Made by a program: the position numbers and the translations under genes | Shown here: positions 14,147 through 60,018 of the stretch, piece by piece | Position numbering within the stretch: the stretch's first letter is position 1 | How the letters are laid out: each line of letters opens with the position of its first letter | Notes under the pieces: model-generated | The model's input: only the letters and a program-made list of their open reading frames with translations | Told to the model about the DNA's origin: nothing | Databases searched by the model: none | NCBI RefSeq assembly: GCF_036826855.1 | Contig: NZ_CP104578.1 | Location: 3,844,001-3,908,000 of the forward strand | DNA length: 64,000 nt | Source: Streptomyces sp. SJL17-4 | GTDB taxonomy: Bacteria; Actinomycetota; Actinomycetes; Streptomycetales; Streptomycetaceae | Direction: 5' to 3'

Positions 14147-14999
14147 CCAAGCTGAAGATCGCCTACTCGCCCTGCCCGAACGACACCTTCGTCTTCGACG
14201 CCTGGGCCCACGGCCGGGTCCCGGACGCCCCGCGGCTCGACGTCACCTTCGCCGACATCGACATCACCAACGGCTGGGCCGAGAGCGGCACCGACGGCCA
14301 CGACATCCTCAAGGTGTCGTACGCCGTACTGCCCTGGATCCTCGACGAGTACGCGCTGCTGCCCTGCGGCGGCGCCCTCGGCCGCGGCTGCGGGCCGCTC
14401 GTCCTCACCCGGGAGGACGCGACCGGCGCCGACCTCGCCGGGAAGACGGTCGCGGTGCCGAGCGAGCGCTCCACCGCGTATCTGCTGTTCCGGCTCTGGG
14501 CGGCCGAGCAGGTGCCGGGAAGGGTCGGGAACGTCGTCGTGATGCCGTTCCACGAGATCATGCCCGCCGTGCGCGACGGCAAGGTCGACGCCGGGCTCGT
14601 CATCCACGAGGCCCGCTTCACGTACAGGAACTACGGGCTGCACTGCCTCGCCGACATGGGCGAGCACTGGGAGTCCACGACCGGCCTGCCGATCCCGCTC
14701 GGCGCGATCGTCGCCCGCCGCTCCCTCGGTCCGGAGACCCTGCGGCGGCTCGCCGACTCGGCCCGTACGTCGGTGCGGATGGCCTGGGACGACCCGGCGG
14801 CCTCCCGCCCGTACGTCATGGAGAGCGCGCGCAGGAGATGGACCCGAAGGTCGCCGACCAGCACATCGGGCTCTACGTCAACGAGTTCACGGCCGACCTC
14901 GGCGAGCACGGGTACGCGGCGGTCCGCGGGCTGCTCACCCGCGCCGCGGCCGAGGGGCTGGTACCGCCCCTCGGCCCGGACGCGCTGTCGTTCCCGTAG
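14143..14999 (+). CDS. mqnA: Chorismate dehydratase, menaquinone biosynthesis, frame-interrupted
   Basis: MqnA converts chorismate to 3-enolpyruvylbenzoate, the first step of the futalosine route. The protein starts with KLKIAYSPCPNDTFVFDAWA, a characteristic MqnA-type opening, and continues for about 285 residues in the periplasmic-binding-protein fold. The frame shifts near 14834-14842; the C-terminal part (EMDPKVADQHIGLYVNEFTA) is in another frame and ends at TAG 14997-14999. The length fits one lost base. It is translationally coupled to mqnB. Confidence 0.87.
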
Positions 15000-22711: not shown

Positions 22712-22739
22712 ACGTTAGCGCCTGCGCAGCGGCTAACGT
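22712..22739. promoter_or_regulatory. Palindrome between divergent genes, possible overlapping -10 elements
   Basis: ACGTTAGC and GCTAACGT are perfect inverted 8-mers with a 12-bp spacer. TAACGT on the plus strand ends eight bases before the ATG at 22747, the distance expected for a -10 of a leaderless transcript. The other arm gives the same element for the divergent gene. Confidence 0.45.
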
Positions 22740-22746
22740 GGTCCGG

Positions 22747-35339: not shown

Positions 35340-37606
35340 ATGACTACGACGACACCGGGCACCGCCCAGGTCGAGCTCGCCATCGGCGGCATGACCTGCG
35401 CCTCGTGTGCGGCCCGCATCGAGAAGAAGCTCAACCGCATGGACGGGGTCGAGGCCACCGTCAACTACGCCACCGAGAAGGCGAAGGTCACCTTCGACGC
35501 CGACATCGACGTCGCCGACCTCATCGCCACCGTCGAGGCCACCGGCTACACCGCCGCCGAGCCCGCGCCCCCGAGGTCCGAGACCCCCGGCGCCCCCGAC
35601 GGCCCCACCGACGAGGAGAAGGCCGACGAGGAGCTGCGGCCCCTCAAGCAGCGGCTGGTCACCGCCGTCACCCTCGCCGTGCCCGTCATCGCCATGGCGA
35701 TGGTCCCGGCGCTCCAGATCGAGTACTGGCAGTGGCTGAGCCTCACGCTCGCCGCCCCGGTCGTCGTCTACGCCGCCTGGCCGTTCCACCGCGCCGCCTG
35801 GACGAACGCCAAGCACGGCGCCGCCACCATGGACACCCTGATCTCGGTCGGCACGATCGCCGCGTTCCTGTGGTCCCTGTGGGCGCTGTTCTTCGGGACC
35901 GCCGGTACGCCGGGGATGACCCACCCGTTCGAGTTCACGATCGCCCGCACCGACGGCGCCGGGAACATCTACCTGGAGGCCGCGGCCGGCGTCACCGCCT
36001 TCATCCTCGCCGGCCGGTACTTCGAGGCCCGCTCGAAGCGCAAGGCGGGCGCCGCGCTCAAGGCGCTGATGCAGCTGGGCGCCAAGGAGGTCACCGTCCT
36101 GCGCGGAGGCCGCGAGGTCACCGTACCCACCGCCGAACTCCAGGTCGGCGACCGCTTCCTGGTCCGCCCCGGCGAGAAGATCGCCACCGACGGCACCGTC
36201 GTCGAGGGCTCCTCCGCCGTCGACGCCTCCATGCTCACCGGCGAGTCCGTCCCGGTCGAGGTCTCCGTCGGCGACTCCGTCACCGGCGCCACCCTGAACG
36301 CCGGCGGCCGGCTCGTCGTCGAGGCCACCCGCGTCGGCGCCGACACCCAGCTCGCCCGGATGGCGAAGCTCGTCGAGGACGCGCAGAACGGCAAGGCCGC
36401 GGCCCAGCGGCTCGCCGACCGGATCTCGGCCGTCTTCGTCCCCGTCGTCATCGCGCTCGCACTCGGCACCCTCGGCTTCTGGCTGGGCACGGGACAGGGT
36501 CTGACCGCGGCCTTCACCGCCGCCGTCGCCGTCCTGATCATCGCCTGCCCCTGCGCCCTCGGTCTGGCCACCCCGACCGCCCTCATGGTCGGCACCGGCC
36601 GCGGCGCGCAGCTCGGCATCCTCATCAAGGGACCCGAGGTCCTGGAGACGACCCGCAAGGTCGACACGATCGTCCTCGACAAGACCGGCACCGTCACCAC
36701 CGGCCGGATGACCCTCATCAAGGTCCACACCGCCGAGGGCGTCGACGAGAAGGACGTCCTGCGCCTCGCCGGCGCCCTGGAGCACTCCTCCGAGCACCCG
36801 ATCGCCCAGGCCGTCGCCACCGGCGCCGCCGCCAAGGTGGGGACCCTCCCGACCCCCGAGGACTTCGCCAACATCCCCGGACTCGGCGTCCAGGGCATCG
36901 TCGACGGCCACGCCGTCCTCGTCGGCCGCGAGAAGCTCCTCGACGAGTGGGCCATGGCGCTCCCCGCGGACCTCAAGTCCGCGAAGGACACCGCCGAGAA
37001 GGCCGGCAAGACCGCGATCGCGGTGGCCTGGGACGGCGAGGCCCGCGCGGTCCTCGAAGTCGCCGACGCGGTGAAGGAGACCAGCGCCGAGGCCATCAAG
37101 CGGCTCCGCGCGCTCGGCCTGACCCCCATCCTGCTCACCGGTGACAACAAGGCGGTCGCCGAGGCCGTCGCCGCCGAGGTCGGCATCGACGAGGTCATCG
37201 CGGAGGTCATGCCGCAGGACAAGGTCGACGTCGTCAAGAAGCTCCAGGCCGAGGGCCGTTCGGTCGCGATGGTCGGCGACGGCGTGAACGACGCCGCCGC
37301 CCTCGCCCAGGCCGACCTCGGTCTGGCCATGGGCACCGGCACGGACGCCGCCATCGAGGCCGGCGACCTGACCCTCGTACGGGGAGACCTGCGGGCCGCG
37401 GCCGACGCGATCCGCCTCTCCCAAAGACGCTCGGCACGATCCGCTCGAACCTCTTCTGGGCCTTCGCCTACAACGTGGCGGCCCTGCCGCTCGCCGCGGC
37501 CGGACTGCTCAACCCGATGATCGCGGGCGCGGCCATGGCCTTCTCCTCGGTCTTCGTGGTCGGCAACAGCCTCCGCCTGCGGGGCTTCCAGGCCGCCGAC
37601 CGCTGA
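35340..37606 (+). CDS. copA: Copper-exporting P1B-type ATPase, frame-interrupted
   Basis: A Cu(I) exporter of about 755 residues. An N-terminal HMA domain has [10 protein letters not shown] (Cys20, Cys23). TGESVPV marks the actuator near 300, the intramembrane CPC is in [12 protein letters not shown] near 402, DKTGT is near 447, the ATP-site HP is in EHPIAQAV, and GDGVNDAAA is near 646. The end is shifted out of frame near 37425: CTCTCCCAAAGACG lacks a base needed for LSRKTLGTIR. The final helices then read to TGA at 37604-37606. It is an operon with copZ and csoR. Confidence 0.9.
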
Positions 37607-39726: not shown

Positions 39727-40204
39727 ATGCAGCTGGCTGGCGTTCGAACGGCCGCGGCCGGCGATGCGACGACGATATCCAGGCTGCTCGCCGACGCCAT
39801 TCGGAGCAGCTACACGGGAATCCTGGACGAAATCCCGATGCGGCGACTGATCTCCGCGCAATGCGCACTCCCCGCATACGCGCGGAAATTGAAATTCCCG
39901 GGGCGCGCCCGGTTGGCTCGGCTGGCTCGTCGCGACGGACGCGGAGGGCACGGTCGTCGGCGTCGCCGCGGGCGGTGTCCCCTTGCCGGGCGAGGGCGAG
40001 GTGTACGCCCTGGCCGTGGAGTCCGGATCCCGCCGCCGGGGTGTGGGTACGGCCCTGCTGGCGGCGGCCACGGACCGGATGCGGACCTTCGGGGCCCTGG
40101 ACCAGCGGGTGGAACTCCCCGCGGAGGCGGACCCGGCCCTGCCCTTCTACACCCACCTGGGCTTCGCCGCCCTCTCCGCCCGACGCTGGAGCAGAACGCT
40201 GTAG
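39727..40204 (+). CDS. GNAT-family N-acetyltransferase, frame-interrupted
   Basis: A protein of about 159 residues. The first half (QLAGVRTAAAGDATTISRLL) is a typical GNAT N-terminus, and the second contains EVYALAVESGSRRRGVGTAL, the acetyl-CoA pyrophosphate loop R-x-x-G-x-G. Between them the frame shifts near 39897, with GWLGWLVATDAEGTVVGVAA in the new frame. The length fits a net two-base loss or one-base gain. The start is uncertain: ATG 39727 is used, and upstream starts at 39679 or 39685 are open. The substrate is unknown. Confidence 0.7.
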
Positions 40205-40385: not shown

Positions 40386-41279
40386 ATGCACACACCGAGC
40401 GGCACTTCCCTGCCCGTCGTGCCCGCAGCGTTCGCTCCGGTCCTGCCGTCCCGATACGGCCGGGAGCCGGAGCCCGCCCCCGGGGCCGGCATCCGGGTCA
40501 CCTCGGACACCCTGCCCGGACTCGAATCCGTCTCCCCCGCCGACGAGAACTCCGTCTGGCTGCACGACGCCCTGCTCGGCCCGCACAGCGCGGACATCGT
40601 CCGGTACCTCAGCCTCGCCCGCTCCACCGGCGGACCCGTTCTGGACCTCGGCTCCGGCGCCGGGCGGCTCGCCGTCCCGTTCGCCCGCCACGGCTTCGCC
40701 GTGGAAGCCGTGGACCGGGACGCCTCGGCCCTGGCGCGCCTCGACGGCTGGGCCCGCCGGATCGGTCCGCAGGTGGCCGGGCTCGTCGTCACCCACCGGA
40801 CGGACCTCACCGAGCTGCGCCTCGAAGGCAGCTACCGGCTCGCGCTGCTCGCGGGCGCGATGGTCACCGCCGTACCCCCGGCGCGGCGGCCCGAGCTGCT
40901 GCGGGAGGTGGCGTCCCATCTGCAGACGGGCGGCGCCCTCGCCCTGGACTACACGGCGCACCAGCTGCCGGGGCTCATCGCGGAGCCGCAGCGGACCTGG
41001 GCGTTCCAGGTGCCCCGCTTCGACGGCATCGACGAGTGGGTGGTGGCCCGGCAGGTCTTCGACCTGCCGTCGATGAGCGAGCGGATCACGTACTACGCGG
41101 CCAGGACCGGGAAGCTGTCCACGGAGCGGGTCGTCCTGACCACCGACAAGTGGATCGTGGACCCCGAGCGGCTCGCGGCGGAACTGCACTCCGCGGGCCT
41201 GCACATCGAGGGCCGGCGGCGGCACCGGATCGACGACCGGACCGAGTCCGTCCTGCTCGTGTGCAGGACGGACGACTGA
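40386..41279 (+). CDS. Class I SAM-dependent methyltransferase
   Basis: A 297-residue Rossmann methyltransferase. VLDLGSGAGRLAVPFARHG (about residues 83-101) is motif I, AVDRDASAL holds the acidic ribose contact, and LLAGAMVTAVPPARR and GGALALDYTAH correspond to motifs IV-V. A roughly 75-residue N-terminal helical region may help recognise the substrate, which cannot be named. The ATG at 40386 follows GGAGGAGCG, a good ribosome site. There is no obvious operon partner. Confidence 0.78.
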   Translation: MHTPSGTSLPVVPAAFAPVLPSRYGREPEPAPGAGIRVTSDTLPGLESVSPADENSVWLHDALLGPHSADIVRYLSLARSTGGPVLDLGSGAGRLAVPFARHGFAVEAVDRDASALARLDGWARRIGPQVAGLVVTHRTDLTELRLEGSYRLALLAGAMVTAVPPARRPELLREVASHLQTGGALALDYTAHQLPGLIAEPQRTWAFQVPRFDGIDEWVVARQVFDLPSMSERITYYAARTGKLSTERVVLTTDKWIVDPERLAAELHSAGLHIEGRRRHRIDDRTESVLLVCRTDD

Positions 41280-43759: not shown

Positions 43760-44839
43760 GTGATCACGACGGATGGCTCCATGAGGGACGGCCGGGCGGA
43801 CGGCCGGGCGGACGGCCGGGCCGACGCGCAGCTGGTGGCCCTCCACCGCGAGCTGCGTCGGCGCGGCGTGTCGAACTTCCCGGAGGTCGCGAAGGAGTTA
43901 GGGCTCGGGGCCGAGGAGTACGAGCGATGTCGCGCCGAACTGATCTCCCTCGGTCTCATCGTTCCCACCACCAGCACCCACGCCACCAGTGCCGACCTTC
44001 GTGACGCCCGGTGGCAGCCGGACGCGGACGCGGTCGCCTCGGTCGATCCGGAGATCGCGCTGCTGCGCATCCTGGACCGCGAACGGGCCCGACTGCGGGA
44101 GCATCTGGCCGAGGCCGACCACGCGTACAGCGCGCTGGAGACGCTGGCCGGCACGTTTCTCCGGCCGGGTTCGCTGACCCGTTCCCAGATCGCGGTCGAG
44201 GCGATCACCGACTACCGGCGGATCCAGCAGGCGCTGGAGGACATCATCGACGTCACGCAGGAGGCGTCCTGCTCGATGTATCCGACCGGCCCGGCCCGGC
44301 AGGTCCCCGAGCGGATCTTCGAACGGGACCGCCGCAAGCTGGACCACGGAGTGCGGGTCCGCGCCATCTACCGCGGCAGGGACGCCGCCCGGCCGGAGGC
44401 GGCGGAGGTCCTCAACCGCCGTGCGGAGCTGGGTGTCGAGGTCAGGATCGCGCCCGATCTGCCGATGACGATGGTCATCGTCGACGAGCAGTACGCGATC
44501 GTGCCGCTGCGTCCCGAGGAGCCCGGCAAGGGGGCGATCCTGGCCCGCGGGCCGCTGCTCGTCCGCTCCTTCCTGAGCCTGTACGAGCACTGCTGGCACA
44601 CGGCCTCGCCCTACGGGGACCATGTGGCGCCCGAGCGGGGCGGGGACGGCCTTTCGGAGCAGCAGCAGGCGGCGCTGCAGATGCTCGCGGCCGGGATGAA
44701 GGACGAGAAGATCGCCCGCAATCTCGGGGTCTCGCTGCGCACGGTGAGCCGGATGCTCTCCGAACTCATGCAGGAATTGGGCGCGTCGAGTCGCTTCGAG
44801 GCGGGTGTACGGGCGGTACGGCTGGGCTGGCTGGATTGA
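43760..44839 (+). CDS. LuxR-type HTH regulator, tandem paralogue 3
   Basis: A 359-residue paralogue of the regulator at 41950. N-terminal repeats (GRADGRADGRAD, from a 12-bp DNA repeat) precede LVALHRELRRRGVSNF. A TrmB-like middle domain (about 105-270) and the LuxR HTH (LSEQQQAALQMLAAGMKDEK to MLSELMQELG) follow. It is about the same length as paralogue 1 and intact. GTG at 43760 follows AGAAGGGGGAAC. It ends at a strong intrinsic terminator that closes the regulator block. Confidence 0.8.
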   Translation: MITTDGSMRDGRADGRADGRADAQLVALHRELRRRGVSNFPEVAKELGLGAEEYERCRAELISLGLIVPTTSTHATSADLRDARWQPDADAVASVDPEIALLRILDRERARLREHLAEADHAYSALETLAGTFLRPGSLTRSQIAVEAITDYRRIQQALEDIIDVTQEASCSMYPTGPARQVPERIFERDRRKLDHGVRVRAIYRGRDAARPEAAEVLNRRAELGVEVRIAPDLPMTMVIVDEQYAIVPLRPEEPGKGAILARGPLLVRSFLSLYEHCWHTASPYGDHVAPERGGDGLSEQQQAALQMLAAGMKDEKIARNLGVSLRTVSRMLSELMQELGASSRFEAGVRAVRLGWLD

Positions 44840-44935: not shown

Positions 44936-45130
44936 TCAGTTGATCGGCGAGGTGGTGGTGGGAACGGCGTGCGGCCAGTCGTCGGTCGGACCGGCCTGCT
45001 GCTGCCCGGCCGGGGCGGCGTCGGCGGTGGTCGCCAGGGCGGCGCCGCCCCCGACGGCCAGACACGCCACCAGGGCGAGGGCGAACTGACGGACGGCCAT
45101 GCGAATTCCGGAGTTCTGCTCAGCGGACAT
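44936..45130 (-). CDS. Small secreted protein
   Basis: A 64-residue precursor. Basic residues (IRMAVR) precede a hydrophobic core (QFALALVACLAVGGGAALAT), with probable cleavage after ADA. This leaves a mature peptide of about 28 residues rich in Gln, Pro and Thr (APAGQQQAGPTDDWP...). The ribosome site TGGAGGAATC and ATG 45128-45130 are convincing. It has no cysteines and no recognised family. It is the last minus-strand gene of the cluster, so it could be a secreted product, signal or unrelated. Confidence 0.65.
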   Translation of the reverse strand: MSAEQNSGIRMAVRQFALALVACLAVGGGAALATTADAAPAGQQQAGPTDDWPHAVPTTTSPIN

Positions 45131-46679
45131 GATTCCTCCAGGAGTTGGAATGTGAATTCCGCCTTCTGGGGGCCCGTGCCGCCGGGCGCTCCCTGAAGAC
45201 ATCTCCATTCTGTAGCTCCCCCGAGGCGAATCCAGAGTTGTTCGATGCGTGGACCTGCCATGGCGTGATTGCGTCAATAGGCCGCCGCGGGAACGGAATT
45301 ACTTCATCCTGGCCGCCTCTAACTTTTGGTCGAACCAAAAGAGGTGCTAGACTGGTGCGACGGTCTTCTCGTTCCTCCAGGAGAGAGAGGCCGTCGGGGT
45401 AGGGGGCGTGCCGCCGCCCCTGCCCCACCACCCGCTCCCCGCCGGAGAACACCGGCCGGCGCGTCTCCGCCAGCGCCCCCCGGTACACCTCGACGGTCCG
45501 CGCGGCCGACGCCCGCCAGCTCATCCCGTGCGCATGCCGCACCGCCGCCTCCCCCATCGTCTCCACCATCGCCGGGTGCGCCGCGAGCCGGCGCAGCCTG
45601 CGCGCGTAGTCCGACGGGTCGTGACCGTGCACCAGAAGCCCCGTCACCCCGTCCCACACCGCCGTCGACAGCCCGCCGACCGCCGCCGCGAGCACCGGAG
45701 TCCCGCAGGCCTGCGCCTCCAGGGCCACCAGACCGAACGACTCACTGCGCGAGGGCACCACCAGGACGTCCGCCGCCCGATACCAGTCCGCGAGCCGCGC
45801 CTGCGGTACGGGCGGGCAGGACCGCAGCACATCCGTCACCCCGAGATCCGCGGCGAGCTGCCACGCCGACCCCTCGCGGGTCGCGCCCGAGTGGCCGCCG
45901 ACCACCGGCACCAGCAGCCGGCGGCGCAGGTCCGGGGCCTCCCGCAGCAGCTCGGCGACCGCCCGTACGAGCACGTCCGGGCCCTTCAACGGCTGTATGC
46001 GGCCCGCGTACAGCGGCACGAACGCGTCGGCCGGAAGCCCGAGCCGGACCCGCGCCGCCACCCGGCCGTCCCCCGGGTGGAAGGTCCGCAGATCGACCCC
46101 CGGGCGCACCACCTCGGTCCGCTCCCCCGCCGCCCCGTACAGCGACCGCAGCGCCTCGGCCTCGTCTGCCGTGTTCGCGATCAGCCGGTCCGCGGCGCCC
46201 ACCACCTGGTGCTCGCCCCGGACCCGCAGCTCCGGCTCGGGGGTGTCACCGGCGGCCAGCGAGGCGTTCTTCACCCGGGCCAGGGTGTGGGCGGTGTGCA
46301 CCAGCGGGATCCGCCAGCCCACCGAGGCGATCCGGCCCGCCTGCCCGGAGAGCCAGTAGTGCGAGTGGAGCAGGTCGTACCGCCGCTCCTCCTTGAGCAG
46401 GGCCAGCGAGAACGGCACCACCAGGTCGGGCATGGCCTCCTTGGGCAGCGCCCGGCGCGGCCCCGCGTGCAGATGGCGGACCCGCACCCCGGGGGCGAGT
46501 TCGACGAGCGGGGGCAGGTCCTCGCCCCGGCAGCGGGTGAACAGATCGACCTCCGCGCCCTGTTCGGCCAGGGCGCGGGACAGCTCGACCATGTACACGT
46601 TCATGCCGCCGGCGTCCCCCGTCCCGGGCTGGTGGAGCGGGGAGGTGTGGACGCTGAGCATGGCGACGCGCAGGGACAC
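45120..46679 (-). CDS. GT4-family glycosyltransferase, MshA-like
   Basis: A 519-codon frame; residues 1 to about 420 are a normal GT-B glycosyltransferase. VHTSPLHQPGTGDAGGMNVY matches the MshA N-terminus, HSHYWLSGQAGRI and NTADEAEAL follow, and SRSESFGLVALEAQACGTPV is the nucleotide-sugar E-x7-E site. MshA joins N-acetylglucosamine to inositol phosphate; the acceptor here is unknown. The last 100 codons run through AT-rich, operator-bearing DNA and look non-coding, so a lost stop or frameshift near 45400 is likely. GTG 46677-46679 follows AGGAGC. The promoter region 46680-46835 shows TAC-rich repeats. Confidence 0.78.
   Translation of the reverse strand: MSLRVAMLSVHTSPLHQPGTGDAGGMNVYMVELSRALAEQGAEVDLFTRCRGEDLPPLVELAPGVRVRHLHAGPRRALPKEAMPDLVVPFSLALLKEERRYDLLHSHYWLSGQAGRIASVGWRIPLVHTAHTLARVKNASLAAGDTPEPELRVRGEHQVVGAADRLIANTADEAEALRSLYGAAGERTEVVRPGVDLRTFHPGDGRVAARVRLGLPADAFVPLYAGRIQPLKGPDVLVRAVAELLREAPDLRRRLLVPVVGGHSGATREGSAWQLAADLGVTDVLRSCPPVPQARLADWYRAADVLVVPSRSESFGLVALEAQACGTPVLAAAVGGLSTAVWDGVTGLLVHGHDPSDYARRLRRLAAHPAMVETMGEAAVRHAHGMSWRASAARTVEVYRGALAETRRPVFSGGERVVGQGRRHAPYPDGLSLLEEREDRRTSLAPLLVRPKVRGGQDEVIPFPRRPIDAITPWQVHASNNSGFASGELQNGDVFRERPAARAPRRRNSHSNSWRNHVR
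45323..45341. promoter_or_regulatory. Operator-like palindrome inside the glycosyltransferase 3' reading frame
   Basis: CTTTTGGT-CGA-ACCAAAAG is a perfect 8+3+8 palindrome in an AT-rich patch (45190-45360) that differs in composition from the coding DNA around it. It probably belongs to the promoter of the small secreted protein. Its presence suggests the true glycosyltransferase stop lies upstream of it. Confidence 0.45.
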
Positions 46680-46835
46680 GAGGGGCTCCTGAGGGGAGGG
46701 AAGCCACGTGCCCCTGCGCGTCGCTCGCGCGCGCGCACGGTCACGCGGCAGGGTGGGGGATCGGACGGTACCGGGGTACCGGTTACTGGGTACTGGGCTA
46801 CTTAGTTGCTTAGTAGTAGGAGTACGGAGGGCGGG

Positions 46836-48406
46836 TCAGAAGCCGAAGACCGGGCCCGACGGGGGTGCCAGGCGGGTCCCCGGCAGGGGGGCCGTCAGGG
46901 CGTGCCAGTCGACCGGACGGCCCGGCGCCACCTGGAGCGCCGCCGCAAGGCGGTCCGCGCCCTCCGGCATCACCGGCCGCGACCAGGCCGACAGGGCCGA
47001 GGCGACCGCCAACTGGGCGGCGAGCGCAGGGAGATGACGGCAGGAGGTGCTGGGCCGACAGCGTTCGTGGGCGTTGACGTGACCGAAGTCAGCGGCCGAG
47101 CGGACCATCTCGTCCAGGACGGCGACGGCCCGGCGCGGGTCGAAGGCATCGGGGCCGTACGCCTCACGAAGGTCGTCGACGCCCCGGTGCAGCCGCCGCT
47201 CCAGGATCTCCCAGCCGGTGCCGCCGGGCAGGCCTGCGCGGCGCGAGACCGCCGCACTCCTCCCGTACGGCGGCGAAGAGCCGGGACAGCCAGCTGTTCC
47301 AGTTCTCGTCCAGCTCGCGGCGGGCGGTGGCGAGCCGCTCCCGGTGGAAGACGGTGCGGCGGCCCAGCGGGCGGGCCTGGAGGACATGGCGGCGCAGGGT
47401 GTCGGAGCCGTACTCGGTGAGCAGGTCGAGCGCCCAGACGTTGCCCTCCTGGACGCCCTCCTCGATGACGTACGACTCGTTGACGTTGAAGTCCTGCGGC
47501 AGCTTGATGTCCTGCGCGAGGAGCAGCACCGGAAGCAGCACGGCGTGGCAGAAGGCGTGCCCGAAGCCGCAGAAGTGGATCGCGCGGCGGGGCAGCGGGC
47601 CCTTCACGTCGTAGCCGAAGAGGTGCATCGCGGCGGCCTCGAAGCAGCCGTCGATCCGGTGGTCGGGGAAGCCCTCGACGGGGACCTGGAGGCCCCACTC
47701 GGCGGGGTGGCCGACCGCGATGTCCGGCAGCCCGTCCTCGACGAGCGAGCGACTCGCACAGCGCGGCGAGCCGCGGCGGCAGCCCGGCCGTCGCCCAGTA
47801 GTCGGCGAGCGTCTCCCGGAACGGCTCCAGGGGTACGTAGAGCCGGCGGCAGCGGCGGGCCACCGCCGGGGTGTCGCAGAGCGCGCAGCGGGCGCCGATC
47901 AGGTCGCCGCCGTCGTTCGGCCGCGCGCACTCGTGGCACATGCCGCCGTCGCTGACCGCGCCGCAGTGCGGGCAGGTGCCGGTGGCGTGCGCCCCGTACA
48001 GCCAGCGGTCGCAGGGCTCGCAGTACGGGAGGAGGCGGGTGCGCGGGGCGATGACGCCCTGCGCGAAGAGCCGCCCGAAGAGGTCCTGCACCCAGCGTCC
48101 GTAGCCCTTGTCGCGGCGCGGGCGCACGATGTGGTCGAACTCCACGCCCGACCGTAGCCAGTCCGCGGTGATCGCGGCCCGGTAGCCCTCCGCGACCTCC
48201 TCGGGCTTGCGGTTGTGGCGCAGCGCGCGGACCTCGACGGAGCTTGCGTGGTCGGCGGTACCGGTGGTGAACCGGACGGCCTCGCCCTCGGCGCGCAGAT
48301 AGCGGGTGAGGACGTCGGCGGCGACGTACGGCCCGGCGAGGTGGCCGATGTGGAGTTCGCCGTGGGTGGCGGGAGGGGTCGCGGTGATCCAGACGGGGGT
48401 GCTCAT
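46836..48406 (-). CDS. Methionyl-tRNA synthetase-like class I ligase without KMSKS, frame-interrupted
   Basis: A protein of about 523 residues. HGELHIGH (residues 15-22) is the class I HIGH motif. Four Cys-x-x-Cys knuckles (CEPC, CPHC, CHEC, CALC) form a MetRS-type zinc domain. Where MetRS has KMSKS-x-GN this protein reads EEGVQEGN, so the loop is lost while the flanking GN is kept. Two frame changes lie near 47745 and 47232. A housekeeping role is unlikely; it may activate an amino acid for a small molecule. It sits between the glycosyltransferase and SDR genes of one minus-strand cluster. Confidence 0.75.
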
Positions 48407-48443
48407 GGGGCTGGAACCTCCTTGACGCTGTGGTGCGGTGGGC

Positions 48444-49190
48444 TCAGCGCGGTTCGAAGTGGAAGGAACGGATGAAGCAGTCGCGGGGCTGCTCGACCGC
48501 GTAGACGATGCATTCGAAAAGCGCCTGGGTGGTCAGCTTCTCGTCGGGTGCTATTCCGTCCGGATTCGAGCCGTCCCATTCCGCGAAGCGAGGGTCGGAG
48601 GTCGAGAAGTCGGGCGGGAAGAGGGAGAAGACGCGGACGCCGGAGGGGCGGAGGCGGCGCGAGAGGATGTCGGCGAATCCGGCCTGGGCGCTCTTCGCCG
48701 CCCAGAAGGCCTCGTGGGCGGCGCCGGCGGCCGCGGCGGAGGCGCCCTCGGCGTCACGGACGGCGACCATGTTGACGATGTCGGGCCGCAGCGAGCCGCG
48801 CAGCAACGGCAGGAAGTGCTTCACCATGAGGACCGTGCCGCCGGCCGTCGACTCGATCGTCTCGACGATCTCGGCGTCGCTGGCCGCCTCCAGGTCCATG
48901 CCGTCGAGCCAGCGGGCGCCGTTGTTGACCAACAGGTCGACCCGGTCGGTGCGTTCGCCGACGCGGGCGGCGAACTCCCGGATCTCGGCGGGCCTGCTGA
49001 GGTCGCAGCCGAAGGCGTGGATACGGTCACGGGCCGAGCCCATGACTTCGGTACGGGTGCGTTCGGCGGCCTCGACGGTCCGCGCCGAGACATAGACCTC
49101 GGCACCGAGATGCGCGAATCCGACGGCGAGCGCGCGACCGAAATAGCGGGACGCTCCGGTCACGACGACACGCAGATTCTCGAATTTCAT
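48444..49190 (-). CDS. SDR-family protein with degenerate active site
   Basis: A 248-residue Rossmann protein of the short-chain dehydrogenase family, with VVVTGASRYFGRALA for cofactor binding and LLVNNGARW (the NNAG-like motif). The catalytic Y-x-x-x-K is replaced by FWAAK near residue 160, and the catalytic serine strand reads NMVAVRDAEG. The cofactor glycine motif is also altered (RYFG for SGIG). It may be a non-redox SDR or bind NAD(P) structurally. It starts at ATG 49188-49190, 38 bp upstream of the ligase gene. Confidence 0.78.
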   Translation of the reverse strand: MKFENLRVVVTGASRYFGRALAVGFAHLGAEVYVSARTVEAAERTRTEVMGSARDRIHAFGCDLSRPAEIREFAARVGERTDRVDLLVNNGARWLDGMDLEAASDAEIVETIESTAGGTVLMVKHFLPLLRGSLRPDIVNMVAVRDAEGASAAAAGAAHEAFWAAKSAQAGFADILSRRLRPSGVRVFSLFPPDFSTSDPRFAEWDGSNPDGIAPDEKLTTQALFECIVYAVEQPRDCFIRSFHFEPR

Positions 49191-49280
49191 GTGTGCCTGC
49201 TCTCCCCACGGATACCGATGGCCGGTCCATTTCAGCGTGGCAGAGGAAAGGGACCGCGGGCCTGGCGAGAGGGTGCGCGT

Positions 49281-50245
49281 TCACGCCGTTGCGTGGATAC
49301 GCCACGGCAGCACGAGCCTTTCGAGCAGCTCGGCGCGCTTGTGGTGGACGCGGACGCGGTCGGGCGCGGTGGAGACGGTGACGGTGCCGCCGGGGGTATG
49401 GACCGCGCCGTCCACGGGCGGGACGACGGTCCCGTCGATCGCGCCGGCGGCGGCGAGGGCGGCGGCGCCGGTGAGCGCGAGCCGGGGGTGCCAGCCGCCG
49501 ACGGTGAGCGCGCGGACGGCGATCCCGCCGGGACCGGCGGTGAAGACGGCGATCTTGGGGAGGGCGGAGTGGGGTGGATGGCCGAGGAGGCGGGCGGCGT
49601 GGGCGCGGAGGGCGAGGAGCCGGTCGTGGAGGGCCTCTTGGGGAAGGTTTCGGGCGTCGACGAAGACGTAAGGGTTGCCGTAGCGGACGAGGGAGACGGG
49701 GGTGCCGTCGAGGAGGTCGACGGGGCGGCCGGTGGGGAGGGTGCCGGGGGCGGTGGGGGCCCGGAGGAAGCTGAGGGTGTAGGCGTCGCCGTGGGGTTGC
49801 GGCTGCGGGTGGGGCTGCGGATGTGGCTGCCGCTGCGGATGTGGCTGCGGCTGTGGCTGCCGCTGCGGATGTGGCTGCGGATGTGGCTGCGGTTCGCAGA
49901 GGACGGTGTCGCCGGTGGTCACGGCGCGGACGGTGACGGGCCCGGGGCGGCCGTCGGCGACGACGCAGGCGAGGAGGGAGTGTCCGCATCCGGCGCGGAA
50001 GTCGAAACCGCCGTCGGGGAGGGCCTGGACGAAGCGGTGGTCGAGACGGCCGTGGCCTGCGGGGCGGTACAGGGCGATCTTGCCGATCCCGGCGTGGGGC
50101 GTGCGGGCGAGCGCGTGGCGCAACGCCGCCAGCTCTCCGCCGAGGGCGAGGGCGCCGGGGGGAGGTGGTCGAGCCGGAGGACGAGGGTGGGGCCGGGGGC
50201 GTCGTGGGCGCGGACGAGGGCCGCCTCCACCCCCGTTGTGGGCAT
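49281..50245 (-). CDS. PrpF-like isomerase (DAP-epimerase fold), frame-interrupted
   Basis: A protein of about 321 residues. FRAGCGHSLLACV places a catalytic-type Cys before the helix as in PrpF/DapF. VRYGNPYVFVDAR and the second-half HPRLALTGAAALAAAGAIDG followed by HTPGGTVTV match the PrpF pattern (tautomerase/isomerase of aconitate-like acids). A Pro/Gln/His repeat of about 35 residues interrupts it (49791-49895). The frame breaks near 50163, one C short. The start is uncertain: ATG 50243-50245 lies in a repeat element; GTG 50228-50230 may be better. Confidence 0.65.
49791..49895. repeat. In-frame Pro-Gln/His repeat within the PrpF-like gene
   Basis: About 105 bp made of GGCTGCGGATGT-type 6- and 12-bp units encode alternating QP and HP (about 17 dipeptides) on the minus strand. 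All units are multiples of three, so the frame is kept. Confidence 0.85.
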
Positions 50246-50468
50246 ACGTTCCGCAGGGGCGGTGGGGGTCCCCCCGGACGGAGTCTGGGGGAGGGTGGGC
50301 ACAACGGACGGCACCCTTGCGGGTGCCTCCGCTCCTTGTGCCTGGACCCGCACCGGAAGCGCGTCGCCCTGGTGGTGCGGGCCGGTTACGGGGGCGGAGG
50401 CGCCGCCGGAGGGCGCCGTCCCGTGTGCCCACCCGTCCCGCCCTGCGGGACGATTGCCCACACGGGCG
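50232..50468. repeat. Family B MITE-like palindromic element, copy 2
   Basis: About 237 bp with ends CCCGTTGTGGGCA and TGCCCACACGGG and the same two-arm inverted design as 9541-9773, including CCCCCCGGAC...GTCTGGGGG. It lies between the AsnB-like and PrpF-like genes and reaches the proposed PrpF-like start codon. Confidence 0.65.
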
Positions 50469-50483
50469 GGGCGGGGGGCCGCA

Positions 50484-50625
50484 GCCGGGGGCGCAGGCGC
50501 CACAGGCGCGGGAGGCGCGGCAGCCGCAGGCGCAGGGGCGGTAGACGCGGCGGCCGTGGGCGCAGGCGCCGCAGGCACGGGCGCCGTGGCGGCCGCAGGC
50601 GCTGTGGCGGGGCGCGGAGGTCCCG
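50484..50625. repeat. Degenerate GCAGGCGC-type repeat after the AsnB-like gene
   Basis: Irregular units of 9-12 bp built on GCCGCAGGCGC fill the space between the stop of the minus-strand AsnB-like gene and the family B element. No gene is visible. Confidence 0.55.
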
Positions 50626-50630
50626 GGGGG

Positions 50631-52460
50631 TCAGGCCGCACAGCCGATCGGGATGCGCATGCCCTGGACCACCTCCGTCCACAGTTCGTGGACCGCCAGG
50701 GCCCACAGCGCCTGGGCGTCGTGGTGGGAGGGTCGTTCGCAGTGACGGGTGAGGAGTTTCTGGACGCGGTCCGCCCGGACCTTGCCGCCCAGGACCAGGC
50801 GGGCCGGGGACAGGAGTTCCCGGACCGTTTCCAGGAGCGGACTGCCGGGTGCGAGCATCGCCGACAGCGGCAGGGTGAAGGGCTGCTTGGGGCGGCGCAG
50901 GACCGCCGAGGGCAACAGCTCCGCCCCCGCCTCGTACAGCGCCCGCTTCCCCGTCCGCGCCGCCGTCGGCAGCGCACGCGCGTGCGTCACGACCGCCGGC
51001 TGGCAGAACGGCATCCGCGCCTCGACCGCCCACGCCATCGACAGGTGGTCCACGCGCCGCAGGTGGTACGCGGGCAGCCGCCACCGCGTCTCGAAGGCCG
51101 TCATCGCGGTGAGCCGGTCCTCGCCGACGGCCTCCGCCGAGCGGAGCTCCTGCTCGATGCGGTCCGCCGCCGAGCCCTGATCGGCGATGTGGGCACGGTA
51201 GTTGGACGTGTAGAGGTGCTCGCGGAGCAGCCGCGGCGCCGCCGAGAGCGCGTCCGCGTAGGACGCCGCCCAGTCCGTCCCCGCCCAGTCCGTCCCCGCC
51301 GGCGCAGCGAGCGCCGCGCGCATCCGGTCGTACCCGCCGAAGAGTTCGTCGGCGCCGTCGCCGGTCAGCGCGACGGTGAAGCCGTTCTCGCGGACGGCGC
51401 GGAACAGCGCGTACGTGGAGAGGGCGATGGGGTCGGCGTTGGGCTGGCCGAGGGGGGACGGTCCGGGTGAGGAGGGAGCCGATCTCGTCGGGGTCGACGG
51501 CGACCTCGTGGTGCACGGTCCGGGCCCGGCGGGCGACGGAACGGGCGTACGCCGCCTCGGAGTCGGGCCACCGGCCCCGGTAGGTGAGATGGAAGGTGTG
51601 CAGCGGCGGCGCGTCGGTCTCGCGGGCGTGTTCGGCGGCGAGCGCGGTGACGAGACCGGAGTCGAGGCCGCCGCTGGTGATGGCGCAGACGGGCACCTCG
51701 GCCTCGGCGAGCCGCCGCACCTCGTGCCGCAGGACGTCCTGGGTGTCGCCGACGGGCGTGCTCCGGTGCGGTCCCCGGCGGCGTACGACGGGTGCGGCGC
51801 CGGGCCGTACGAAGGCGGTGGCCCCGGGCGGCAGGACGCTGACGCCGTCGAGGGCGGTGTGCGTGGAGAAGGACGTACGGGTGGCGAGGACGGTGTCGAG
51901 GGAGTCCTCGCGCGGGGAGATCCGTACCCCTTCGAAGGCGAGGAGCGCGGGGATCTCGGAGGCGAAGCGGGTGGAGCCGTCGTACGGGTCGTGGTGGAGA
52001 TGGATCGGCTTCATGCCCATGTCGTCGACGGCGAGGACGAGTTGGGTGCTGCCGGGGCGCAGGTCGAGGATCGCGACGGCGAACATGCCGTCGAGGTGCT
52101 CGGCGAACGCGGGCCCGTACTCGGCGTAGAGCGCGGGCAGCAGCGTGCCGTCGCAGCGGTCGGGGAACCGGTGGCCGCGGGCGGCGAGGGTGCGGCGCAG
52201 CTCGGCGTGGTTGTATATCTCGCCGTTGAGGACGGCGAGGATGCCGGGGAGGTGGGGCAGCCGGTAGGGCTGCCGGCCGCCGCAGGGGTCGGTGACGGCG
52301 AGCCGGTCGCAGCCGAGGGCCCAGCCGGGCCCGGTGAGCACGGCGTGCTCGTCGGGTCCGCCGTGCGCTGACGGGCCGAGACCGCCGCGAGCTGGGCCGG
52401 CTCGGGGCGGTCCGCGTGGGCCGCCGCCCCCGCGGCGAAGGAGCCGAGAATCCTGCACAT
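50631..52460 (-). CDS. AsnB-like glutamine amidotransferase/synthetase, frame-interrupted
   Basis: A protein of about 609 residues. MCRILGSF exposes Cys2, the Ntn glutaminase nucleophile; NGEIYNHAELRRTLAARGH and CDGTLLPALYAEYG follow. The synthetase half has the PPi loop TSGGLDSGLV near 260 and GDGADELFGGYDRM. Such proteins amidate aspartate or, in biosynthetic clusters, other carboxylates. Frame changes lie near 52378 (one base short) and 51465 (one C too many or two short); the total length remains divisible by three. The start is ATG 52458-52460, divergent from the deacetylase gene. Confidence 0.82.
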
Positions 52461-52552
52461 AGCGGTCACCCTCCAAGCACATCACCCAACTTGACCAATG
52501 ATTTGAATCTACCAACTTTTTGAATGGCGCGTAAGTGCCATGTCCAGTTCAC

Positions 52553-52565
52553 GCCAAGGCTTGGC
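52553..52565. promoter_or_regulatory. Palindrome in the divergent AsnB-like/PIG-L promoter
   Basis: GCCAAG-G-CTTGGC is a perfect 13-bp palindrome in the 141-bp divergent gap. The rest of the gap (52480-52530) is clearly AT-rich, with TTGAAT repeated, as expected of promoters. Confidence 0.4.
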
Positions 52566-52601
52566 CTTGCGACGCCCCCGCCGCCCCAACAGGCTGACCT
52601 C

Positions 52602-53335
52602 ATGGAGGACTTCGACCACACCGCTCGCACCGCCCCCGAATCGCTGCTCGTCGTGGCCGCGCACCCCGACGACATCGAGTTCTGCGTCAGCGGCACCGTC
52701 ATGCAGTGGATCGAGCGCGGCACCCGCGTGACGTACTGCATCGTCACGGACGGCGGCGCCGGCGGTTACGACGACAGGCTCCCCCGCCAGGCGATGGCGG
52801 ATCTGCGCCGCGCCGAACAGGTCCACTCCGCCAAACTCAGCGGCGTCGCCGACGTCCGCTTCCTCGGCTACCCCGACAGCTTCGTGGAAGCCTCCGTGGA
52901 ACTCCGCCGCGACCTGTGCCGGGTGATACGGGAGGTACGGCCGCAGCGCGCGATCATCCCCTCCCCGAGATCAACTGGGCGCGGGTCGCCGACCTCCACC
53001 CCGACCACCGCGCCGTCGGCGACGCCTGTCTGCGCGCCGTCTACCCCGAGGCCCGCAACCCCTTCGCCCACCCCTCCCTGCTGAAGGAGGAGGGCCTGGA
53101 GCCGTGGACCGTCCACGAACTCTGGCTGATGACCGGCCCCACCCCGAACCAGTACGTGGACGTCACCCCCGTCTTCGACCGCAAGGTCGAGGCACTGCGC
53201 ATCCACACCTCCCAGACGGCCCACTTCGACGACCTCGCGGGCCTCCTGCGCACCTGGCTCGGCGAACACGCGACGGCGGGCGGGCTACCGGCGGGACGGA
53301 TGGCGGAGGCGTTCCAGATCGTGCACATCGACTGA
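52602..53335 (+). CDS. PIG-L/LmbE-family deacetylase (MshB-like), frame-interrupted
   Basis: A zinc deacetylase of about 244 residues. AHPDDIE (His21, Asp24) and HPDHRAVG supply metal ligands as in MshB, which removes the acetyl group from GlcNAc-inositol. TDGGAGGYDDRLPRQAM follows the active-site loop. The frame breaks near 52967: PSP then EINWARVADLHPDHR needs one more C. The length fits one lost base. It starts at ATG 52602, divergently from the AsnB-like gene, and pairs logically with the MshA-like glycosyltransferase 6 kb away. Confidence 0.83.
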
Positions 53336-57324: not shown

Positions 57325-57723
57325 ATGGACGACCAGCAGACGCTCGACAAGCCCATGCTCATCCTCATCGCCGGGCCCTACCGCTCCGGCACCGACGGCG
57401 ACCCGGAGGCCATGGCCGCCAACCTCGCCCGCCTGGAAGCCGCGGCGTGGCCGGTCTTCGCCGCGGGCCATCTCCCCGTGATCGGGGAGTGGATCGCCCT
57501 GCCCGTCCTGCACTCGGCCGGCGCGGGTCCCACAGACCCCCTCGCCGAGCAGGTCCTGTACCCGGCCGCCGACCGTCTGCTCGCCCACTGCGACGCCGTA
57601 CTGCGGCTGCCCGGCGACTCCACCGGCGCCGACCAGGACGTCGCCACCGCCCGCCGCCGCGGCCTGCCGGTCTACCACGACGTGACCGAGATCCCCGGCC
57701 GTACGGCGCGGGAGGACGCGTGA
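57325..57723 (+). CDS. DUF4406 (nucleoside deoxyribosyltransferase-like) protein
   Basis: A 132-residue protein. MLILIAGPYRSGTDGDPEAM is the nucleotide-binding start of the DUF4406/nucleoside 2-deoxyribosyltransferase-like fold, and DAVLRLPGDSTGADQDVATA holds the conserved S/T-x-G-A-x-x-D-V pattern. The enzyme is likely to act on a nucleotide or nucleoside, but the reaction is not established. Its stop overlaps the NUDIX start (GTGA), and a DeoR regulator is divergent. Together these suggest a small nucleotide-sugar or nucleoside clean-up unit. Confidence 0.75.
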   Translation: MDDQQTLDKPMLILIAGPYRSGTDGDPEAMAANLARLEAAAWPVFAAGHLPVIGEWIALPVLHSAGAGPTDPLAEQVLYPAADRLLAHCDAVLRLPGDSTGADQDVATARRRGLPVYHDVTEIPGRTAREDA

Positions 57724-58455
57724 GCACCGGCCCCGCGCGGGGGCGGGCCGGCGACCGGCTGCCCGACGACCAGCTGCCCGACGACCAGCTGCCTGACGAC
57801 CGGCTGCCCGGCGTCGACGTCCCCGACCACCGGGGCCGGACCCACCTCGACCGCGCCGGACGCGATCTCGACCGGAACCCCGGTGTCGTGGTCCGCGACG
57901 TCGAGCTCACCTCCCGCGGCTGGCACGTTCTGCGGCGGACCACCTTCGACTACCGCCGCCGCGACGGGCGTTGGGTCACCGAGCAGCGCGAGACGTACGA
58001 CCGGGGGAACGGCGCCGTCGTCCTGCCCGTACGACACCGAGCGCGGCACCGTCCTGCTCACCCGGCAGTTCCGCTACCCGGCCTACGTCAACGACCACCC
58101 CGACGGCATGCTCGTCGAGGCGGCGGCGGGGCTGCTCGACGCCGACGACCCGCTGACCGCGGTCCGCCGCGAGAGCGCCGAGGAACTCGGCGTCACCCTC
58201 GGCCCGCTCACCCACGTCCTCGACGCGTACATGAGCCCCGGATCCGTCACCGAACGCCTCCACTTCTTCGCCGCGCCCTACACCCCGGCCGACCGGACCG
58301 GGACCGGCGGCGGACTGGAGGAGGACGGCGAGGACATCGAGGTCCTCGAACTTCCCTTCACCGAGGCCCTCGCGATGACCCGCGACGGCCGGATCGCCGA
58401 CGGGAAGACCATCCTGCTGCTGCAGTGGGCGGCGCTGGACGGGCCGTTCGCCTGA
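57720..58455 (+). CDS. NUDIX hydrolase, frame-interrupted
   Basis: A protein of about 245 residues. The N-terminus contains a threefold LPDDQ repeat (15-bp DNA unit, 57761-57805). The NUDIX domain follows, with TVLLTRQFRYPAYVN and the box GLLDADDPLTAVRRESAEEL ending GV, close to GX5EX7REUXEEXGU and similar to NudK-type GDP-sugar or ADP-ribose pyrophosphatases. The frame changes near 58026; removing one C from CTGCCCGTAC restores VVLPYDTERG. The start GTG overlaps the previous stop. Confidence 0.75.
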
Positions 58456-58476: not shown

Positions 58477-60018
58477 TTACGGACGCAGGACGGGAAAGTG
58501 TGCTCCGGCCCAGGGAGCGCGGAGGGAGACCGGCCGGCCGGCGGCCGGCTTGCCGTCGGTCCTGTCGTCGCCGTCGGCCCACACCTTGACCTGCGACGGG
58601 GGGTCCTCGTCGAGCGACGGCCAGCCGGGGTTCCCGTCGGCGGCGAAGTCCGCCCAGGCACGCACCATGCGGCGCGACAGCTCGTGGTCGGCAGGGGTGG
58701 GCGTACCGCCGATGAGGAAGGCCACGGCGTCGTCGTCCAGAGTGCCGAAGGCGAAGGGGATGTCCGCGCAGTGCCAGGCCCGCACGGTCCCCTCCGGCCC
58801 GGTGCGCCGACGGTCGAAGCGCGAGAGGAACGTCCTGCCGCCCGCTCGGGCGTGGGCCTCAGCGAGCCGGTTGCCGTACTCGCCGAAGAGCAGGTCGCCG
58901 AAGACGGCGAGGTAGACGTCGAGCACCGGGGCATCGGGCATCGCGGCGCGATATCCGGCGACGAGGCCCTCGGGGAGACCGAAGTCATCGGCGAAGACCG
59001 CGAGTTGTTCGTCGGTGGTGACCTTCGCGCAGCTGCCGACGGCGTCGAGCAGCCAGTACTCCTCGGTGGCGTGGCAGACCAGCAGGTCCACTCCCCGGCC
59101 GCGCCGGCGGCGATCCCGGCGAGGGGGTCGGTGGGCAGGACGTCGCCGTCGAGGACCGGGGCGTAGAGCGAGGGGTCGTAGTGACGGGATCCGGAGGCGG
59201 GGTCCCGCCGGTAGTCGTCGACCACCTGGTCGGCGGCGGTGACCAGGGCCTGCGGAGTCATGGCGGTCAGGCCCTCGGGCGTGGCGGGGCAGCCCGCCGC
59301 CGCGGCGATCTCACGGGTGGTCGCCTCGGAGATCTCGCGCGTGTAGCAAGGGCTGGCGGGGCTGTGGGCGATGGCACGGTGGAACAGGCCGCGGGCGCGG
59401 TCCATCACCATGAGACAGGCGATCGAGGCGGCGCCGGAGGACTGTCCGGCGATCGTGACGTTGCCGGGGTCGCCACCGAAGGCGGCGATGTTGTCCCGTA
59501 CCCACCGCAGCGCCGACCTGGTCGAGCAGACCGCGATTGTCCGGGTGGCCGGCCGCCGCGCCGCCCGGGACGTGGCCGAAGCCCTCGAAACCGATGCGGT
59601 AGTTGATGGTGACCACGACGAGACCGGCACGGGCGAGCGCGAGGCCGTCGAAGTCGGGCTGGGCCGAGGAGCCGAAGGTGTAGGCACCGCCGTGGATCCA
59701 CACGAGGACGGGGAGTCGGCCGGGGAGCCGACCGCCGTCGGGGACGGGAGTCCAGATGTTGAGGGTGAGGATGTCGCCGTCGCCGTCGCCGTCGCCGGGA
59801 GACCACACGGGTGAGCCGGGGAGCTCTGCCGACTGCGGCGCTATCGGGCCGAACTTCGTACAGTCCCGCACACCGCTCCACGCGGGTGCCGGAAGGGGCG
59901 CGCGGAACCGGTCGGCGCCGAAGGGCGGGGCGGCGTAGGGGATGCCGAGCGCGGCGACGACATCGGCGGAAGCCCGGAAGCCTCGGGCCAGACCGTTGTT
60001 CGTCCTGAAGATGTCCAT
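58477..60018 (-). CDS. Type-B carboxylesterase, frame-interrupted
   Basis: A carboxylesterase/lipase of about 513 residues with an alpha/beta-hydrolase fold. LVWIHGGAYTFGS is the oxyanion-hole loop, FGGDPGNVTIAGQSSGAAS carries the nucleophile Ser in G-x-S-x-G, and the catalytic Glu and His would be in the C-terminal half. No signal peptide is seen. Frame changes are near 59510 and near 59097 (one G short); the total length stays divisible by three. ATG 60016-60018 (MDIFRTNNG) is chosen. It is divergent from the FAD oxidoreductase gene. Confidence 0.83.

Follow-up and report, generated by a model that had tools for sequence, protein, structure and literature searches.

The closest described counterpart of the gene cluster considered here is the mycothiol pathway (MshA-MshB-MshC-MshD), with which it shares an MshA paralogue scoring above the equivalog cut-off, a deacetylase of the PIG-L family, a third enzyme derived from an aminoacyl-tRNA synthetase and, in the same segment, a GNAT gene. 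Unlike in that pathway, the deacetylase is not an MshB by model score, and the third enzyme is a paralogue of MetRS, not of CysRS, which lacks the KMSKS motif in Streptomyces; furthermore, the cluster contains extra AsnB, PrpF and SDR genes, whereas MshA, MshB, Mca and MshC are encoded elsewhere in the genome. The logic of a GT4 glycosyltransferase combined with a PIG-L deacetylase is also that of bacillithiol synthesis (BshA-BshB), but the GT4 of locus L011, which, like L012, holds intact orthologues of all six cluster genes, reaches 538 bits with the MshA model and 75 bits with the BshA model, and its PIG-L protein stays below both BshB cut-offs (89.0 bits for BshB2 and 82.8 bits for BshB1; cut-offs 195.25 and 182.5; TIGR04000, TIGR04001). 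By tree, the nearest relatives of the MetRS-like protein are the cupin/MetRS-like hydrazine synthetases, with which it shares the zinc-knuckle cysteines and, in 34 of 41 KMSKS-less proteins, the HIGH motif; the differences are that the cluster has no detected cupin or N-hydroxylase and, in Streptomyces, no KMSKS. In Aravind et al. 2010 (PMC2922099), the MtRS paralogue is said to occur with both partners, the cupin and the N-monooxygenase, without exception and with its adenylation residues intact, a statement that the present cluster breaks. Class I synthetase folds outside translation are further exemplified by SbzA and by the cyclodipeptide synthases (for the latter, PMC2922099); tRNA-dependence, putative here, would explain the missing ATP motifs of the cluster protein. 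SbzA (SB-203208), an IleRS relative, is no precedent for the loss of HIGH and KMSKS, since it keeps both in slightly modified form, as described in PMC6331615.

The cluster was found in a window of 64,000 nucleotides of Streptomyces sp. SJL17-4 (NZ_CP104578.1; Table 1). The preliminary description had correctly placed and ordered the six genes, with PIG-L divergent from AsnB, PrpF, SDR, MetRS-like and GT4, as well as the short ORF.

Table 1. Genes of the cluster and of its flank in the window (window coordinates)
Feature	Position	Strand	Remarks
PIG-L/LmbE-type deacetylase	52602..53335	+	PF02585, 82 bits; ORF pieces 52524-53084 and 52706-53335
AsnB-like protein (class II glutamine amidotransferase and asparagine-synthase domain)	50631..52460	-	PF13537, PF00733
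PrpF-like protein	49281..50231	-	Start approximate; low-complexity insert; PF04303 in relatives
SDR without catalytic Tyr, 248 aa	48444..49190	-	PF00106, 90 bits; unbroken
MetRS-like protein	46836..48406	-	PF09334, 122 bits on first part; 521 aa in near relatives
GT4 glycosyltransferase, MshA paralogue	45396..46679	-	TIGR03449; ORF continues to 45120; relatives stop at about 440 aa
Small ORF, 64 aa	44936..45130	-	N-terminus signal-peptide-like by eye; similar ORFs in 18 loci
LuxR-type regulator	43760..44839	+	PF00196; flank, co-inherited
SAM methyltransferase	40386..41279	+	PF13649 on L011 orthologue; flank, co-inherited
GNAT acetyltransferase, C-terminal part	40001..40204	+	Flank; intact relative in L057 matches PF13508

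In this assembly, four of the six genes carry at least one change of frame, namely PIG-L (one frameshift), AsnB (two), the MetRS-like gene (two, with pieces 91-95% identical to the L011 protein spread over three frames) and PrpF (at the N-terminus only); SDR and GT4 carry none. Outside the cluster, 9 of 36 genes matched to one relative (G004) are frameshifted as well, including the gene for futalosine hydrolase, an enzyme of menaquinone synthesis. Since the frameshifts are spread across the window and affect this gene, we suspect that assembly error is likelier than local decay of the cluster; the latter was set aside, even though the share of frameshifted genes is higher in the cluster. The indels measure 1-4 bases, lie in mixed contexts and do not discriminate between the two causes.

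The cluster is a conserved, real unit in Streptomyces and Kitasatospora. All six genes are present in 38 of the 60 loci gathered via the MetRS-like protein, a route of collection, used for most loci, that favours a picture in which MetRS is always kept; gene order and strands are retained in each of the 43 full loci, a set in which some genomes are counted twice. Among the loci as a whole, the pairs L012/L024, L036/L104 and L059/L107 each appear to be one genome, as their contigs are equally long. A search based on PIG-L yielded 8 positive genomes out of 121 from Streptomyces, and MetRS-like and GT4 genes adjoin in all eight, accompanied by AsnB in seven and by PrpF and SDR in six each. Thus, the co-occurrence in related genomes on which the preliminary description turned is indeed observed. 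AsnB, PrpF and SDR are absent in some lineages, so that gene content differs between them: three loci (L045, L047, L105) hold only the trio of GT4, PIG-L and MetRS-like genes, one (L022) has MetRS-like and GT4 genes and no PIG-L, and in three others the MetRS-like gene stands without any of the other five. L036 and L066 are possibly mislabelled as Microtetraspora and Saccharothrix. No description of the cluster was found in the literature searched, which included few subscription papers.

Co-occurrence is just as strict for the flanking genes as for the cluster itself and is therefore in part a mark of inheritance as a single chromosome segment. Specifically, a close LuxR orthologue is present in all 5 cluster-bearing genomes and in none of 20 others, and so is the SAM methyltransferase at an E-value of 1e-30; GNAT relatives are found in 45 of 67 loci. 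A control gene for an M48/M56 peptidase, at least 48% identical in the five cluster genomes and at most 44% elsewhere, tracks them nearly as well; hence, the flank pattern is one of segment co-inheritance, and LuxR, methyltransferase and GNAT were set aside as proven members of a pathway.

As judged by its sequence, the GT4 is a second MshA, paralogous to the housekeeping one: against the MshA equivalog model (TIGR03449, cut-off 462.5), it scores 539.2 bits in the window genome and 537.8 bits in L011. The residues that we take to contact inositol phosphate (N25, K78, Y110, T134, R154) and the UDP-sugar (R231, K236, E316, E324) in MshA are present in all eight mapped cluster GT4s, a map that leaves out five loci (L048, L049, L061, L064, L066), and are invariant over 43. 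Because these acceptor and donor residues are kept, the second pseudo-disaccharide envisaged in the preliminary description, GlcNAc-inositol, appears to be a sound prediction. The GT4 and PIG-L are not the only MshA and MshB of the genome, given that another MshA and a clear MshB (L109, 404.4 bits) are encoded elsewhere, along with Mca and an MshC scoring 677.7 bits with TIGR03447.

The assignment of the deacetylase is less straightforward. The motifs AHPDD and HPDHR are kept in 48 of 48 loci, but the intact L011 protein (244 aa) reaches 29.4 bits with the MshB model TIGR03445, for which the cut-off is 224.35, and among proteins of solved structure, diacetylchitobiose deacetylases and LnmX are closest to it in sequence. 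Both the score and these relatives would speak against a mycothiol-like route. Similarly, the segment contains no recognizable two-domain MshD, as one representative of its GNAT (166 aa) had no match among the MshD models. The intact AsnB of L011 exceeds the TIGR01536 cut-off (295.5 against 267.1 bits), and both Cys2 and the SGGLDS loop are found in 45 of 46 loci. The PrpF-like protein matches PF04303 weakly in L011 (E-value 7e-9) and clearly in L064 and L066 (71 and 75 bits), with CGHS, Lys and WHP invariant in 14 aligned proteins. The SDR was rightly called degenerate: Phe takes the place of the YxxxK Tyr in all 45 loci with the gene, and the glycine motif TGxxxGxG reads TGASRxFG.

The MetRS-like protein has 66 relatives in our collection, of which three are cupin fusions, and the cluster proteins form a clade whose sister is the standalone type of the cupin/N-monooxygenase loci; long branches at the outgroup make the root position less sure than the split itself. 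The enzyme is not a CysRS-type MshC (TIGR03447). By a pattern test, KMSKS is missing in 41 of 47 cluster-clade proteins, which make up the Streptomyces branch, and 40 of these 41 also lack the GxD aspartate, so that both are kept only in six proteins of the Kitasatospora type; P0037 retains a partial KMSKS loop, and three short proteins (P0002, P0006, P0061) were left out of the motif table and the tree. On the tree, the loss of KMSKS is a single change. In view of these losses, the earlier proposal of an MshC-type ATP-dependent ligase is unsupported as worded. Nonetheless, the gene is under purifying selection even without AsnB, PrpF and SDR, or also without GT4 and PIG-L: pairwise dN/dS is 0.15-0.21 in the trio-only loci, where GT4 and PIG-L show 0.18-0.26 and 0-0.09, respectively, and again 0.15-0.21 in the three loci where it stands alone.

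Taken together, these features can be envisaged as an assembly line that resembles mycothiol synthesis and runs alongside the housekeeping mycothiol genes as a separate system. In its first, sequence-supported step, the MshA paralogue would join UDP-GlcNAc and inositol phosphate; PIG-L would then deacetylate the product to glucosaminyl-inositol, which housekeeping MshA and MshB could supply as well, and the MetRS-like protein would acylate the free amine, with an aminoacyl or another group, thus occupying the place of MshC. The Kitasatospora-type protein could still be an ATP-dependent ligase; since the KMSKS loop is gone in Streptomyces, the protein there would receive a ready-activated donor, most likely aminoacyl-tRNA. 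AsnB, PrpF and the Tyr-less SDR might, optionally, tailor the acyl part; in the preliminary description, AsnB and PrpF were putative suppliers of a modified acid. We regard the chances of such a route to an N-acylated glucosaminyl-inositol, with an acyl-transfer enzyme no longer on the standard ATP loop, as evenly balanced. The narrower scenario, a second glucosaminyl-inositol conjugate made in Streptomyces by a KMSKS-less MshC counterpart that depends on tRNA, or another pre-activated donor, with no ATP activation, seems doubtful; the use of tRNA is weakened by the loss, in the cluster proteins, of the PW stretch with which canonical MetRS acts at the anticodon. Constraint in the MetRS-only loci is what would be expected if housekeeping enzymes can supply the substrate, although in these three loci, and in L022, the protein could have an unrelated job.

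It is improbable, in our view, that the region is just a vertically inherited stretch of chromosome that serves several unrelated functions rather than a shared pathway: the LuxR, methyltransferase and peptidase orthologues are indeed tied to the cluster genomes almost as tightly, and gene content varies by lineage, but the constant order and strands of the full loci, some genomes being represented twice, and the persistence of GT4, PIG-L and MetRS together in the genome where AsnB, PrpF and SDR were lost argue otherwise. That AsnB is the true ligase, activating an acid and amidating or acylating the sugar amine, with the MetRS-like protein as a non-catalytic or regulatory relic, would agree with the retained Cys2 and SGGLDS of the former and with the absence of KMSKS and, nearly always, of the GxD aspartate from the latter in Streptomyces; we consider this quite unlikely, as the MetRS-like gene stays constrained within the trio-only loci and on its own, where AsnB is absent, and its median dN/dS, 0.28, does not exceed the 0.32 of AsnB.

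The competing idea of the preliminary description was hydrazine (N-N bond) formation; here, the MetRS-like enzyme would activate an amino acid for coupling to a hydroxylamine, in the manner of the cupin/MetRS hydrazine synthetases. This idea could draw on the sister group in the tree, on the presence of the degenerate SDR, in a copy of 54-55% identity, in two cupin/N-monooxygenase loci (L015, L068) and on AsnB-like enzymes in some such clusters, as reported in PMC11705231 and PMC2922099. However, within the flanks examined (up to 10 kb per side in part of the loci), no cupin or N-monooxygenase relative was detected in any of 48 cluster-type loci or in L011-L013 and L104-L107, whereas such relatives occur in 8 of 12 other loci and in L015 (cupins in nine other loci, Lys/Orn N-monooxygenases in seven). 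In the cluster-type loci, neither a fused or adjacent cupin nor a nearby Lys/Orn N-monooxygenase was found, and the adenylation motifs are not intact in Streptomyces, where KMSKS is missing; to our knowledge, GT4 and PIG-L have no role in hydrazine synthesis. Given these empty flanks, we reject hydrazine synthesis as very unlikely.

If the mycothiol-like route is real, some streptomycetes (8 of the 121 genomes sampled) harbour an overlooked counterpart of mycothiol chemistry, with a product that would share the sugar-inositol core but carry another acyl group and perhaps serve as a cofactor, signal or conjugating agent. The step from Kitasatospora to Streptomyces would then form a natural series along which a class I synthetase fold sheds KMSKS and is nevertheless kept by selection, and the capabilities of such a fold in the absence of ATP activation would become directly testable.

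In several lineages, the cluster is bordered by a metH-metF-ahcY-DinB operon, which in the window genome is located some 16 kb away from PIG-L; a functional role for it was set aside, as two ahcY genes are also present in a cluster-free genome. Close DinB orthologues (at least 72%) are found only in the 5 cluster-bearing genomes among 25.

All the genes claimed for the cluster were recovered at the locus by Pfam scans and frame maps of the window, which covers bases 3844001-3908000 of an 8.54 Mb genome in one contig. The intact form of the unit is seen in L011, the locus of a Streptomyces relative, where a PIG-L gene (244 aa) is divergent from the genes for AsnB (605 aa), the PrpF-like protein (286 aa), the SDR (247 aa), the MetRS-like protein (521 aa) and GT4 (440 aa). 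In the window, frame changes affect PIG-L (one), AsnB (two), PrpF (one, near the N-terminus) and MetRS (two). An automatic comparison with G004, a genome of the same genus, identified as frameshifted three of the six cluster genes and nine of the 36 other matched genes, with three duplicate rows excluded and the PrpF shift unflagged, being visible only in the frame map. The assembly of the window appears to be indel-rich and, since these nine genes, among them a CopA-type ATPase and futalosine hydrolase, are frameshifted as well, the frame breaks in the cluster are probably sequence errors. Menaquinone formation in streptomycetes needs futalosine hydrolase. In L070 (S. diastatochromogenes ATCC 21481), PrpF, SDR, MetRS and GT4 also match in more than one frame of that assembly. 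ORFs similar to the small one in the table occur in 18 loci, many of them ending with WP and a Pro-rich tail.

Features of the window, including genes frameshifted in comparison with G004
Window position	Feature
6189-9253	frameshifted, intact in G004
9867-10645	frameshifted, intact in G004
13341-14143	frameshifted, intact in G004
14143-14996	frameshifted, intact in G004
19648-20731	frameshifted, intact in G004
22738-25267	frameshifted, intact in G004
35340-37603	frameshifted, intact in G004
44936-45130	64 aa ORF, signal-peptide-like start
57714-58452	frameshifted, intact in G004
58480-59871	frameshifted, intact in G004

The gene unit is real and conserved. One MetRS-like profile scan of named genomes yielded 60 loci. 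By identity thresholds of our own setting, 48 have a cluster-type MetRS and 12 are of other types, and the complete six-gene set is present in 38 of the 60, including L066 and the Kitasatospora locus L064. As to the ten partial cluster-type loci, L025, L034 and L046 end at a contig edge, L045 and L047 have PIG-L, MetRS and GT4 of the six, L059 is without PrpF and SDR, L022 has MetRS and GT4, and L050, L053 and L060 have MetRS only; in the latter three, the MetRS-like gene has an MFS transporter gene and a LuxR relative as neighbours. Gene order and strands are kept in all 43 full loci of a set of 67, in which some genomes are counted twice. A search from PIG-L found an orthologue in eight of 121 Streptomyces genomes, that of the window included (at 1e-30, 13 genomes had some match, the five non-orthologues being 36-40% identical paralogues). 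Beside it lie MetRS-like and GT4 genes in all eight genomes, AsnB in seven, and PrpF and SDR in six. Both searches bear out the co-occurrence in related genomes that the preliminary description had set as a check.

Of the 66 matches in the MetRS-like search, three carry a cupin domain. A tree was built from 63 proteins, leaving out three short ones; in it, the sister group of the cluster clade (47 proteins) consists of 12 standalone proteins of hydrazine-synthetase type. By a simple pattern test, KMSKS is retained, together with the GxD aspartate, in six of the 47 (five named Kitasatospora, one Saccharothrix); the 41 proteins lacking it form a single branch (support 100/100), and all 33 named ones are from Streptomyces. 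In this branch, the GxD aspartate is missing from 40 proteins and HIGH, as HxGH, is present in 34; P0037 and a few others retain scraps of the KMSKS loop, most varying freely there in length and letters. The zinc cysteines are mostly retained. According to Aravind et al. 2010 (PMC2922099), this MetRS paralogue is invariably accompanied by a cupin and a lysine N6-monooxygenase, and its residues for adenylation are intact. The cluster clade is at odds with both of these statements. A search of the flanks of the 48 cluster-type loci, and of L011-L013 and L104-L107, found relatives of neither partner. GT4 and PIG-L are not known to act in hydrazine-type systems; with cupin and N-monooxygenase genes not found in these flanks and KMSKS gone from most of the clade, the competing proposal of N-N bond synthesis is unlikely for it. 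Nine loci have cupin relatives (L015, L068, L072, L074, L075, L076, L077, L080 and L081), and seven of the nine have a monooxygenase relative as well. In L015 (G012), L068 and L072 the cluster is of the hydrazine type, a MetRS-like gene standing together with those for a cupin and a Lys/Orn N-monooxygenase; L015 and L068 further contain a copy of the tyrosine-less SDR (54-55% identical). Neither relative was found in four of the 12 other-type loci, L071 (a 3.4 kb contig), L073, L078 and L079. L073 (S. smaragdinus), where a LuxR relative lies beside a 43-44% identical MetRS and a search nearby found no cupin, N-monooxygenase or other cluster genes, may belong to the cluster type as a distant form.

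The cluster GT4 scores 539 bits against the MshA model (cut-off 462.5), as compared to 665 bits for the other, housekeeping MshA of the genome, to which it is 58% identical. The residues that we take, from the C. glutamicum MshA structure, to bind inositol phosphate and UDP-GlcNAc are identical in the housekeeping MshA and all eight mapped cluster GT4s, and invariant across 43 sequences. Since an MshB (404 bits) is also encoded elsewhere, along with Mca (429 bits) and MshC (678 bits), the cluster GT4 and PIG-L are not the only MshA and MshB of the organism, in line with the preliminary description.

Median pairwise dN/dS values, crude Nei-Gojobori estimates with many non-independent pairs, are 0.15 for PIG-L, 0.145 for SDR, 0.28 for MetRS, 0.32 for AsnB, 0.33 for GT4 and 0.42 for PrpF. 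Loci with only PIG-L, MetRS and GT4 give 0-0.09, 0.15-0.21 and 0.18-0.26, respectively, and MetRS-only loci 0.15-0.21 for MetRS. Because these values stay low, the KMSKS-less protein still has a function even without AsnB beside it, absence of AsnB, GT4 or PIG-L referring here to the locus (for G054, every PIG-L match in the genome was listed).

Judging from sequence, the cluster would be a new form of mycothiol-type assembly, using an unusual relative of the synthetases and leading to a putative product; no description of it was found in the open-access literature searched. The GT4 would perform an MshA-type glycosyl transfer, and the PIG-L protein, as its family suggests, would deacetylate the product. 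Position and constraint point to the MetRS-like protein as the probable acyl-transfer enzyme, and AsnB, PrpF and SDR, whose genes are missing in some lineages, may carry out tailoring. Retention of MetRS without GT4 and PIG-L fits a substrate that is also supplied by the housekeeping pathway, the sample having been gathered via MetRS itself and hence biased toward this pattern. A precedent for the donor could be SbzA, a class I synthetase relative described as acylating a metabolite from charged tRNA (PMC6331615); unlike the Streptomyces cluster protein, which is without KMSKS, SbzA keeps both motifs, HIGH and KMSKS.

Flanking genes include LuxR relatives (51 of 64 loci), Fur (46 of 64), a methyltransferase (45 of 64), an M48/M56 peptidase (43 of 64) and a GNAT (45 of 67). 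Close LuxR and methyltransferase orthologues were found in 5/5 cluster-bearing genomes and 0/20 others. This was considered as a sign of shared function and rejected; because the peptidase has nearly the same distribution, the co-occurrence shows a co-inherited segment. It is tempting to view the GNAT as a counterpart of MshD; MshD models gave no match to the one representative tested. In L114 (G000, 3903900-3918000), a second ahcY is accompanied by metF-like, metH-like and DinB/MDMPI (mycothiol-dependent family) genes, and in other lineages the operon is the immediate neighbour of PIG-L.
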